Source of the DNA: Planctomycetaceae bacterium
GTDB taxonomy: Bacteria; Planctomycetota; Phycisphaerae; Phycisphaerales; SM1A02
DNA: 52,776 nucleotides
Direction: 5' to 3'
NCBI GenBank assembly: GCA_002683215.1
Contig: NYSY01000150.1
Location: 1-52,776 of the forward strand
A program made the translations under genes and the position numbers. Each line of letters opens with the position of its first letter. Position 1 is the stretch's first letter. The notes beneath the pieces are model-generated. The model was given only the letters and a program-made list of their open reading frames with translations. It ran no database searches and was not told the DNA's origin. This document shows positions 49,703-52,737 of this stretch, in pieces.

Positions 49703-51457
49703 TCAGGGATTCCCGGCGTTTTCCATCCAGCGGTCGGCGCAACGACCGGCGTTCTGACCGGATACCTGTCCGCTTCGCTCGGTGTAGGTGCCTTTCCACG
49801 CCTTGCGACGAACGATCTCCACCGCCGCGAGGAAGGCGTCGACGTCGGTCTCGTCGTTGAACAGGCCGATCGAGGCCCGGACCGCGCCGGCCGGATCGCC
49901 GCCGGCGAGGAGGCGGTCGCTGTGGACGTGCGAGCAGAAGCGGCCGTTGCGGACCGCGATTCCGAACTCCTCGCCGAGCACCGCGGCGGTCAGCATGTCC
50001 GAGACGCCGTCGACGTTGAAGGGAACGATCGCGACCCGTTCTTCGAGGTCCGGCGGCCCGTAGAGGGTGATCCCGCCGATTCCTTGGAGGCCGTCCACCA
50101 TGCGTCGGAAGAGCTTCATTTCATGGGCACGGACTTCCTGCATCGTGATTCGCATCAGGAGCCCGAGCATGACCGACATGCCGATCGCCCCGCCGACGTT
50201 GGGGGTTCCGTACTGGTGGCGATCGGGGCTGGGGAGCCAGGTCGCGCCGGTTTCGTCGACCTTGGCGGCGACGCCTCCGCCGGGGACCACGGGATCGACC
50301 GAATCGAGGACGTCGCGGGGGCCCACGAGGAAACCGGCTCCGAACGGCGCGTAGGCCTTGTGGCCCGCGGCGACGAGGAAGTCGATCGACGTCGGTTCCC
50401 CCGGGCGACCCATGTCGATGGGGGCGTGGGCGATCAGCTGGGCGGCGTCGACGCAGATCAGGGCGCCGGCCTCGTGGGCCAGTGCGGCGATCTCGTGGAT
50501 CGGGGGCATCCAGCCGGTGACGTTCGCCGCCCCGGTCACCGAGACGAGCTTGATCGGCTCCTGCTTGAGGGCGGCCCGAACCGCATCCATGTCAAGTCGA
50601 TGTTCAGGATCGAGCCCGACCCGCACCACGCGACCGCGGCGGCGGTGGGGGAGATCACTGCTGTGGTGCTCGAGGTCCGTGACCAGCACCGCGCCGGGAC
50701 GGGCCGCGACCGCATGGGCGACGATCTCGCAGGCGGCGGTGGTGTTCGAGGTGAAGACCACGCAGTGGTGTCGGAGATCCGCGCCGACGAAGGCGGCGCA
50801 GGTTCGATACGCGTCTTCGAATCGCAGGGTCGAGCGTCGTGCCAGCTGGTAGGAGGCGCGGTGGACGTTGGCGTAGTCGAGGCTGAGGAAGTTCCTGACC
50901 TCATCCATCGCGAAGTCGGGCGGGTGGGTGGTCGCCGCGTGGTCGAGGTAGACGAGCGGGCGGCTGGATCCGTCGAGGACCTCGACGGTGCGGCTGGAGA
51001 TGGCGAAGTTCGATCGGATCGATTCCCAGTCCTCGTGGTCGACGGTCGGTCGTTGATCACGGGCCGCGATGGTCACGGGCCCCGGCGCGATCTCCATTCC
51101 GGCGTCGGTCCAGCCCGCGAATCCCCCATCGAGGCTTCGCACGTCCGTGAAGCCCATGCGCTGGAGCGTCTGGGCGGCGAGGAGGCTCCGCTTTCCGGTC
51201 GCGCAGTACAGGCAGATGGTCTCGGTCGGGCACGTCACCCGCGGATGGATCTCCTTCTCGAGCGTGCCACGCGGGATCAGGATCGCTTCCGGGACGATGC
51301 CGTCCTGCCATTCGGTCGGCTCGCGGACATCGACGACGACGCCCTTGGAGCCGCTCGACCGGAGCGTCGCCAGCTCGGCGGCACCGATCGAGCGAACCTC
51401 CCGACGCGCGGCGTCGCAGAGGTCGTCGTAGGTGTGTGGGTGCGCGATTCGGTCCAT
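49703..51457 (-). CDS. Rhodanese-cysteine desulfurase fusion (class V aminotransferase)
   Basis: A 584-residue fusion. Residues 20-125 are a rhodanese domain with VVVDVREPTEW and the active-site loop CATGKRS, Cys85. Residues about 165-560 are a class V PLP enzyme of the SufS/Csd kind. It has VYLDHAATTHPP (about 169-180), FTSNTTAACEIVAHAV (PLP phosphate-binding), HHSSDLPHR, VDAAQLIAHAPIDM and the Schiff-base Lys367 in GHKAYAPFGAGFLVG. RNGRFCSHV follows with Cys508 at the position of the cysteine desulfurase catalytic loop. The pairing suggests sulfur transfer from cysteine to the rhodanese cysteine in one chain. No suf, isc or mnmA gene is adjacent. It has a plain ATG start. Confidence 0.9.
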   Translation of the reverse strand: MDRIAHPHTYDDLCDAARREVRSIGAAELATLRSSGSKGVVVDVREPTEWQDGIVPEAILIPRGTLEKEIHPRVTCPTETICLYCATGKRSLLAAQTLQRMGFTDVRSLDGGFAGWTDAGMEIAPGPVTIAARDQRPTVDHEDWESIRSNFAISSRTVEVLDGSSRPLVYLDHAATTHPPDFAMDEVRNFLSLDYANVHRASYQLARRSTLRFEDAYRTCAAFVGADLRHHCVVFTSNTTAACEIVAHAVAARPGAVLVTDLEHHSSDLPHRRRGRVVRVGLDPEHRLDMDAVRAALKQEPIKLVSVTGAANVTGWMPPIHEIAALAHEAGALICVDAAQLIAHAPIDMGRPGEPTSIDFLVAAGHKAYAPFGAGFLVGPRDVLDSVDPVVPGGGVAAKVDETGATWLPSPDRHQYGTPNVGGAIGMSVMLGLLMRITMQEVRAHEMKLFRRMVDGLQGIGGITLYGPPDLEERVAIVPFNVDGVSDMLTAAVLGEEFGIAVRNGRFCSHVHSDRLLAGGDPAGAVRASIGLFNDETDVDAFLAAVEIVRRKAWKGTYTERSGQVSGQNAGRCADRWMENAGNP

Positions 51458-51532: not shown

Positions 51533-51904
51533 TCAGTCGGACGTCTGGACGAAGTGGAGGTCGATGTAGCGGGCGACGTAGTCGAGGATGCTCGAGGCTT
51601 CGGGAATCTGGGGGTTCGAGGTCGGGCCCATCGGCTCGAATCGCATCCCGCGAAACCGTTCGACCGCGTCCGCGGGGCTCAGCCCATGCTGGAGGGCCAG
51701 GCTGAAGGCCCGGCAGAAGCCCTGGATCAGGCCGGACAGCGTCGATCCTTCCTTGCTCATCTTGATGAAGACCTCGCCCGGGTTGCCGTTATCGAAGAGC
51801 CCGATGGTCAGGTAACCCTCGTGTCCCGCGATCGCGAATTTGTGGGTCATCGACCGGCGGGTGCTGGGAAGGCTCTGGCGGGGGGGATCGGCCATGGTCT
51901 GCAT
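51533..51904 (-). CDS. Stand-alone C-terminal (TSCPD-type) domain of B12-dependent ribonucleotide reductase
   Basis: A 123-residue protein matching the C-terminal end of adenosylcobalamin-dependent ribonucleotide reductase NrdJ: RRSMTHKFAIAGHEGYLTIGL, then GEVFIKMSKEGSTLSGLIQGF, SLALQHGL, ERFRGMRFEPMGPT and PEASSILDYVARYI. The large catalytic part is not in the window. In some bacteria NrdJ is split into NrdJa and a small NrdJb; here an even smaller piece stands alone, either as a split subunit or a regulatory paralogue. ATG 51904 is taken, with ATG 51895 an alternative. No cobalamin genes are near. It is separated from rplI by about 206 bases that hold two hairpins. Confidence 0.85.
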   Translation of the reverse strand: MQTMADPPRQSLPSTRRSMTHKFAIAGHEGYLTIGLFDNGNPGEVFIKMSKEGSTLSGLIQGFCRAFSLALQHGLSPADAVERFRGMRFEPMGPTSNPQIPEASSILDYVARYIDLHFVQTSD

Positions 51905-52016
51905 CTGCTTGCGACTCCTGAAGTCCGGCTCGGCGACGCCACGATCCTTCGATGCGTCACCAGACGGTTTGGCACTTGGTTCAGATCGTATCGGCCAGCG
52001 ACGCCCGGTCGCTGAA

Positions 52017-52110: not shown

Positions 52111-52737
52111 TCAGGCTTCGGAGGTCTCGGCGGCAGGCTCGGTCGCCGAATCCTCGGCGGGCGTCTCCTCGCCACCTTCCGAGTCGGCGTCGGCGGATCG
52201 ACGGGCGGAGGGTTCGATCAGTTCACCCTCGTTGTCGAACTCCATCTCTTCGGATTCCTCCGAGAGGGAGCGGTCCGCTTCGACCACGATGTGGACCTGG
52301 GCTCGGAGGTCCTTCTCGAACTGGATGACGACCGGATAGTCGCCGACCCGACGGATCGGGTTCGCGAGCCGGACGGCCCGCTCGTCGACGCCGTGGCCGA
52401 GTTCGATGAGACCGTCGGAGATGTCCCGTTGCGTCACGGAGCCGTAGAGGACGCCGCGGTCGTTGCAACTTCGGACCAGCGTGATGCTCATTTCCTCGAG
52501 GGCCTCGATGATCTGCTTCCGCTCGCTGCGGATCTGCTCGAGATCGGCGAGGGCTTCGGCACGCGCGGCCTTGAGGGCTTCGACGCGTTCATCGGTCGGT
52601 GCTTCGGCGATGCCGAGCGGGAGCAGGAAGTTCCGGGCATAGCCGGGCTTCACGGTCACGACGTCGCCGACGATGCCGAGGCTTTCGACGTTCTGGTTGA
52701 GCAGGAGGGTGATGGTTCTGGTTGACTTGGCAGGCAT
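52111..52737 (-). CDS. rplI: 50S ribosomal protein L9 with acidic C-terminal extension
   Basis: bL9 binds 23S rRNA domain V. The first 40 residues have the family signature: LLLNQNVESLGIVGDVVTVKPGYARNFLLPLGIA. The long connecting helix (about 48-80, ERVEALKAARAEALADLEQIRSERKQIIEAL) follows. The C-terminal globular domain has LYGSVTQRDISDGLIELGH and IGDYPV-like RRVGDYPVVIQF. The protein then runs on to 208 residues through an acidic Glu/Asp/Ser/Ala tail of about 45 residues that ordinary L9 (about 150) lacks. ATG 52737. rpsR and ssb, often upstream, may be off the right edge. The end is served by the terminator at 52034-52074. Confidence 0.95.
   Translation of the reverse strand: MPAKSTRTITLLLNQNVESLGIVGDVVTVKPGYARNFLLPLGIAEAPTDERVEALKAARAEALADLEQIRSERKQIIEALEEMSITLVRSCNDRGVLYGSVTQRDISDGLIELGHGVDERAVRLANPIRRVGDYPVVIQFEKDLRAQVHIVVEADRSLSEESEEMEFDNEGELIEPSARRSADADSEGGEETPAEDSATEPAAETSEA

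Follow-up and report, generated by a model that had tools for sequence, protein, structure and literature searches.

Background

The TSCPD domain in the C-terminal extension of NrdJ, the class II ribonucleotide reductase (RNR), is reported to have an IscU-like fold (PMC9669993), and by the same account the RNR literature as of 2022 assigned it no role. In the split class II RNR of Pseudomonas aeruginosa (PMC4520616), the domain is encoded apart from the catalytic subunit in NrdJb, a protein of 229 residues that has a cysteine-rich tail, shares an operon with nrdJa, supplies what NrdJa lacks and binds the rim of the NrdJ cleft in trans. Another RNR accessory domain, the ATP-cone, acts in trans as a regulator in NrdR (PMC9110341). 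Our literature search, which lay mostly outside subscription journals and preprints, found no paper joining TSCPD and ribonucleotide reductase. Judged by titles, the term "TSCPD domain" led only to methanol oxidation, and "Phycisphaer" with "ribonucleotide reductase" only to descriptions of new planctomycete taxa.

The gene described here lies in a 52,776-nucleotide stretch of DNA (the window) from a member of the Phycisphaerales (the order, below), and encodes a free-standing TSCPD protein; gene and protein are both called FS. It shares its Pfam family and most invariant residues with the TSCPD domain of NrdJ, but it is a separate gene with its own start, without catalytic barrel or zinc-finger tail, and has 21 conserved positions of its own, including Cys64, alongside an NrdJ that keeps its own copy of the domain. 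Like NrdJb, FS is encoded apart from the catalytic subunit; unlike NrdJb, it is only 123 aa long, tail-less and unlinked, and its putative partner NrdJ already has a TSCPD domain. Three features of NrdJb are therefore missing: the cysteine-rich tail, the adjoining nrdJa and a catalytic chain that lacks the domain. The likeness to NrdR is one of analogy only, since the domain is a different one and FS has no DNA-binding part. As a small, strongly conserved, free-standing copy in genomes that also have the full enzyme, FS offers a handle on the role of the TSCPD domain, and it opens the questions of whether this domain binds in trans, how it affects oligomerisation and re-reduction, and whether the order uses it to control its dNTP supply.

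TSCPD-like ORFs on Phaeobacter plasmids are similar to FS over residues 8-82, are 122 aa long and stand beside ssb; they differ in lacking the GHEGYLT and KEGST motifs and in their location on roseobacter plasmids, not on chromosomes of the order. No NCBIfam or PHROGs match was obtained for them. Two of these ORFs (L225:3977-4345 and L230:3977-4345) lie downstream of ssb and are annotated as hypothetical or as "ribonucleotide reductase".

The FS gene and its product

FS is a real, conserved gene (Table 1). Its sole Pfam match is PF12637 TSCPD (E 5.3e-15, 55.9 bits against a gathering cut-off of 22.8), and its NCBIfam matches are three full-length NrdJ models, each matched over a C-terminal stretch only (PRK06556, 738-855 of 960; PRK07562, 969-1084 of 1222; PRK08665, 600-702 of 759) with scores far under the whole-protein cut-offs. 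These matches bear out the free-standing NrdJ domain that an earlier note had proposed from the letters of the window. The same note had called it the last segment of NrdJ; the position is indeed C-terminal, but what matches is the TSCPD domain. NrdJ itself continues past this domain with a linker and a cysteine-rich zinc-finger tail, whereas FS ends after it. The note was also right that no large subunit stands beside the gene, whose neighbours are rplI and a fusion of a rhodanese and a class V aminotransferase.

Table 1. Features of the FS locus in the window
Feature	Position	Strand	Description	Basis
FS gene	51533..51904	-	123 aa, ATG start	ORF, Pfam, NCBIfam, relatives, dN/dS
AGGAG, probable ribosome-binding site	51915..51919	-	10 nt upstream of the FS ATG at 51904	
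rplI (ribosomal protein L9)	52111..52737	-	upstream neighbour of FS	
Rhodanese - class V aminotransferase (cysteine desulfurase-like) fusion	49703..51457	-	downstream neighbour of FS	
Long helix, codons 54-72	51689..51745	-	9 of the 21 FS-specific positions	model
Cys64 codon	51713..51715	-	invariant in the FS compared; Gly in the 21 NrdJ TSCPD domains compared	

Among the best 80 named relatives, FS proteins counted from the start of the match are 111-163 aa long. These relatives are MAGs mostly titled Phycisphaerales, Phycisphaeraceae or Planctomycetota, the labels Singulisphaera, Chitinophaga and Kuenenia being taken for automatic bin names, and each of the five nearest bears the title Phycisphaerae, Phycisphaera or Phycisphaerales. 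A first alignment (A1) comprised 27 of 30 loci (L007, which has an ambiguous base, L021 and L022 were left out). A second (A2) drew on 46 of the 80 named loci, near-duplicates and L036 (ambiguous base) having been dropped, and on 14 of 23 viral loci; a TSCPD match at E<=0.01 was present in all 61 of its members (47 FS, 14 viral NrdJ). Compared with the TSCPD domains of the relatives' NrdJ, FS has 49-54% identity, and 44% to one 52-residue fragment.

Distribution of FS and of NrdJ

In a set of 61 genomes, consisting of the window's genome (G000) and 60 relatives, FS was found in 55, at 66-97% identity to the window protein in the relatives, so that the same short gene, for which the earlier note had advised looking in related genomes, does exist there. 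One of the 55, G021, has only a fragment; of the others, five genomes have NrdJ matches only (G002, G007, G048, G052 and G060), and G057 has neither.

Across 270 genomes of the order, matches were divided by a gap in E-values, those of FS being 2e-57 or better and all others 1e-45 or worse. On this basis 250 genomes have a match of FS strength, and 248 of them have at least one further TSCPD match, which was taken as NrdJ, frame lengths being known for the matches listed. Another 17 have NrdJ-strength matches only; in G327 the second match, and in G310 the one weak match (2.9e-34), may be a piece of FS or of nrdJ. Two have FS only and three have neither.

Outside the order FS was not seen. In a sample of 195 genomes from the phylum, it occurred in 19 of 20 genomes of the order (own genome included), while nine other members of the class matched only in frames of at least 409 aa; beyond the class, 72 of 166 genomes matched only in such frames and 94 had no match. 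A survey at E<=1e-52 that covered 396 genomes from the class placed all 116 matches within the order, nine genomes of which are listed as having none. None of the 271 class genomes outside the order reached this cut-off, below which a divergent FS could fall; 260 unmatched genomes were assigned to the outside from the sort order of the table.

Two TSCPD domains exceed the cut-off in the window's genome (2.88 Mb, 68.6% complete), FS itself and one on contig C75 that is part of a frame for class II NrdJ; this contig stops after the domain and ahead of any tail. All 11 NrdJ proteins of the order examined have their own TSCPD domain, and the zinc-finger tail is visible in six (L116-L119, L122 and L131); in the other five the tail region is cut by the contig or the fetched stretch, or is read in the wrong frame. 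Since the class II NrdJ of G000 comes with a TSCPD domain already, FS is a paralogue and not a missing piece of NrdJ. The earlier note had suggested finding nrdJ elsewhere in the genome and checking whether it lacks the C-terminal domain, and had held that an intact nrdJ containing it, together with no conservation of the short gene, would speak against its proposal. The nrdJ was found and does contain the domain, while the short gene is conserved in the 250 genomes above.

Genomes with one gene and without the other

In 10 of the 17 genomes of the order that have no match of FS strength, rplI was found. Seven gave no rplI match (G007, G289, G292, G295, G310, G327 and G254), and assembly gaps are likely, as six of the seven come from the family of the window, in which FS mostly adjoins rplI. 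G300 has rplI and mfd with no FS between them and has kept NrdJ, a case of true absence.

The near-universal presence of FS in the order would be expected if NrdJ depended on it as a subunit, in the way known for NrdJb in Pseudomonas; an obligate subunit was among the options of the earlier note. We consider this highly unlikely, given that the order's NrdJ already includes a TSCPD domain, and in six of 11 proteins visibly the zinc-finger tail, that FS is tail-less, and that the 17 genomes have a match of NrdJ strength without a full-strength FS match, including the 10 with rplI and G300 with its empty interval.

In the reverse direction, G370 has FS only, and its NrdJ catalytic sequence is present in matches that reach the start of a contig. 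G359, also with FS only, gave no RNR match at all, probably owing to a gap. G031 (80% complete) has FS without an NrdJ TSCPD match, though one of its contigs has part of an RNR at its edge.

The three genomes with neither match belong to one genus (g45). G246 (one contig) and G057 (20 contigs) encode a class I-like RNR (PF02867, E 1e-186 and 4e-189) and have no TSCPD match and no FS; the best NCBIfam match of G057, PRK07207, is above its cut-off, and G246 has a further RNR-like frame of 620 aa. The third, G245, is without FS and has class I-like pieces; it also has an NrdJ of the order's type, on a contig of 3.2 kb that stops short of the TSCPD domain and may be contamination or real. A clean joint loss of NrdJ and FS in this genus is weakened by that contig: should it be genuine, only G246 and G057 speak for the co-loss, and they count as one event within one genus.

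Selection and origin

Five members of the genus, the window's genome and four relatives, have FS proteins 88-97% identical to each other, and over the 10 pairs dN/dS was 0.038-0.095 (five of six genus members were used; L007 was left out for its ambiguous base). FS is under purifying selection. A non-functional remnant of an older NrdJ is what one might suppose of a part of a larger enzyme with no partner gene adjoining, and we regard it as the most improbable explanation of all, refuted by the selection and conservation data: the low dN/dS, the single clade across the order, the identity of relatives to the window protein and the ribosome-binding site. As to the earlier note's "remnant kept for another use", a decaying remnant is not supported, given conservation in 250 of 270 genomes and dN/dS below 0.1.

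A tree was built from 93 of 101 domains, after duplicates, short rows and rows with X had been dropped; L134 gave no domain. The 37 FS proteins form one clade (100/99) with a stem length of 0.65, separate from the clade (99/96) that unites the order's 11 NrdJ domains. FS is a paralogue, of single origin, of the class II RNR domain TSCPD (IscU-like), and was probably fixed in the ancestor of the order. Descent from NrdJ of the same order was considered and set aside in view of the separate clades, the branch parental to FS being ambiguous (118 columns, long viral branches).

That FS is an in-place remnant of an ancestral nrdJ, left standing where the larger gene had been, was likewise rejected. 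Five genomes of the class (G100, G148, G214, G224 and G166) have an intact prs-rplY-pth-rpsF-ssb-rplI cluster, and within the 13 kb fetched around it no nrdJ match was found, which argues against a remnant of either kind. TSCPD matches were obtained in five phage and 21 plasmid records, all below 60% identity; of the 23 viral loci, 21 match within open frames of at least 512 aa, L224 is cut by the start of the locus and L214 has a 182-aa frame. FS has no PHROGs family. A phage or plasmid origin was rejected on these grounds, i.e., the low identity, the mostly long viral frames and the lack of a PHROGs family.

The frame in viral contig L214 (2974-3519) starts at the TSCPD domain and runs into CxxC residues, and resembles a split NrdJb.

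Structure model and FS-specific residues

A model of FS built from 61 sequences (mean pLDDT 88.4) has three strands (18-49), a helix at 54-72, a helix at 77-84, a short strand and a helix at 106-119. The top eight PDB rows in Foldseek were IscU/ISCU, but with E>=0.097, and VIA-align gave Z values of 5.0 for IscU (1q48), 4.7 for SufU (5xt5) and 6.4 for a lipoyltransferase. The model agrees with an IscU-like fold but does not by itself establish it.

Columns of 117 FS proteins (from overlapping genome sets) were compared with those of 21 NrdJ TSCPD domains, 11 from the order and 10 from elsewhere. Most residues invariant in NrdJ are kept in FS, among them R16, T20, H21, F23, G30, Y31, P42, G43, E44, K51, G53, S54, T55, Q72, T95, S105, D108 and Y109, as would be expected if a binding surface were shared. 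Twenty-one columns are conserved in at least 90% of FS proteins with a residue other than that of NrdJ, among them K48, Q61, C64, R65, R83, M87, E102, A111 and Y113. Thirteen of the 21 lie in helices 54-72 and 106-119, those in the former being L56, S57, Q61, G62, F63, C64, R65, F67 and L69.

All 27 rows of A1, an alignment not selected by motif, have Cys64; the set of the best 80 was partly selected by a pattern containing FCRAF, so that motif counts there are biased. With this one invariant cysteine, FS is without the several conserved metal-binding cysteines of an IscU-type Fe-S scaffold, and since 32 of the 80 named FS proteins have a single cysteine, a four-ligand scaffold is unlikely. 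The replacement of a glycine of the NrdJ domains by an invariant Cys64 would also suit an adaptor that links NrdJ to a further factor, for instance a reductant of the thioredoxin type or AdoCbl delivery, with Cys64 taking part; one cysteine cannot form an intramolecular disulfide, and we hold this to be very unlikely.

Genomic neighbourhood and possible function

Among the best 80 named relatives rplI is present in 68 and mfd in 62 FS loci, the cluster reading prs-rplY-pth-rpsF-ssb-rplI-FS-mfd in varying orientation, with many loci cut by contig ends. In the window's family FS mostly adjoins rplI/mfd, although in G016 of the same family it is elsewhere, and it lies away from both genes in the 10 loci retrieved from the order's other families. 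There its neighbours are, as we take them to be, purF and a gene for a MutY-like protein, psuG, or cmk and lepA; this placement elsewhere marks FS as an independently placed gene. Next to nrdJ, FS was not found in the window or in the loci looked at, and no order-wide operon was seen. The rhodanese-cysteine desulfurase-like neighbour occurs in only five of the 80 named loci, those of the nearest relatives of the window; an Fe-S role deduced from it was set aside on this count and because of the one invariant Cys.

On balance, we favor, at roughly even odds, the reading of FS as a separately encoded accessory or regulatory protein of NrdJ, which would modulate its assembly or compete with its linked tail. 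An action on NrdJ is the most likely one given that FS occurs nested among the genomes that bear NrdJ and that it has kept much of the ancestral surface. FS would bind NrdJ through the surface common to TSCPD domains; it could pair with the TSCPD domain of NrdJ, or else dock on the rim of the cofactor cleft, the site at which NrdJb binds. Without a cysteine-rich tail FS cannot carry electrons as NrdJb does, which points to modulation instead: it may alter the oligomeric state of NrdJ or compete with the covalently linked TSCPD-tail for the cleft. The effect could be inhibitory or stabilising, and our guess is that inhibition is likelier. The lack of FS in G246 and G057, which have no NrdJ TSCPD match, suggests such a link to NrdJ; suggesting otherwise are the lack of an order-wide FS-nrdJ operon and of an NrdR-box signal upstream of FS (see below), the TSCPD domain that NrdJ itself retains, so that FS need not supply one, and the genomes in which FS is missing while NrdJ stays (G300, and G245 if its contig is not contamination).

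Alternatively, FS may have left RNR and been recruited to another conserved cellular task, e.g., sulfur or metal handling via Cys64 or a role linked to DNA or RNA in the vicinity of ssb, rplI and mfd, its co-occurrence with NrdJ then reflecting the presence of NrdJ in nearly all members of the order. Several observations are in keeping with this: no linkage to nrdJ was seen, the strong new conservation is unlike that of the NrdJ domain, the stem of the FS clade has a length of 0.65, rplI and mfd recur beside FS, and the rhodanese-cysteine desulfurase-like neighbour is present in the window and the five named loci. Nevertheless, the neighbours change between families, most NrdJ-invariant residues are conserved in FS too, the gene is absent from G057 and G246, and the cysteine counts argue against a four-ligand Fe-S scaffold. 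We consider such a departure possible but distinctly less probable than the accessory role. Of the three options of the earlier note, a regulator or accessory protein of RNR and a function away from RNR are thus still standing, and the obligate subunit and the decaying remnant are unsupported.

Regulation of FS and nrdJ

Control of FS by NrdR was rejected: over 77 of 80 upstream regions, the best-site scores for an NrdR box were not above those of shuffles, although the consensus used would miss a divergent box. NrdR itself is present in all 20 order genomes of the phylum sample. Upstream of nrdJ in the order (L115-L122, L131-L133 and L240) the best NrdR-box-like site was at chance level in 12 of 12 cases (p 0.37-1), and outside the order (L123-L130) such a site reached p<=0.035 in five of eight, the two groups differing in base composition. 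A genome-wide search gave no sites in seven order genomes, but of five genomes from outside the order, three (G148, G224 and G211) contained the reversed control pattern at least as often as the box itself. No convincing motif common to the upstream regions of nrdJ and FS was found.

The lack of recognisable NrdR boxes at the 12 nrdJ genes of the order examined, although NrdR is present, would be in line with control having moved from transcription to the protein level. By analogy with NrdR, we tentatively propose, as a more specific and somewhat doubtful version of the accessory role, that FS might be a dedicated, order-specific, trans-acting controller of class II RNR, adjusting dNTP synthesis by way of oligomerisation or by blocking the redox tail.

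Further observations on class II RNR genes

An insertion of about 103 columns in the catalytic domain is present in all 11 NrdJ proteins of the order (L115-L122, L131-L133) and in none of eight from outside it (L123-L130). For the contig-cut NrdJ of G000 the best NCBIfam model is PRK07562, with a score under the cut-off of that model. In G052, which has no FS match, contig C154 (L134) carries a second class II RNR fragment with PRK08665 as the best match and with its own divergent TSCPD domain. In G026 a dCTP deaminase gene (L119:110-934; Pfam DCD, 8e-33) lies directly upstream of nrdJ, and the two form a dNTP-supply gene pair.
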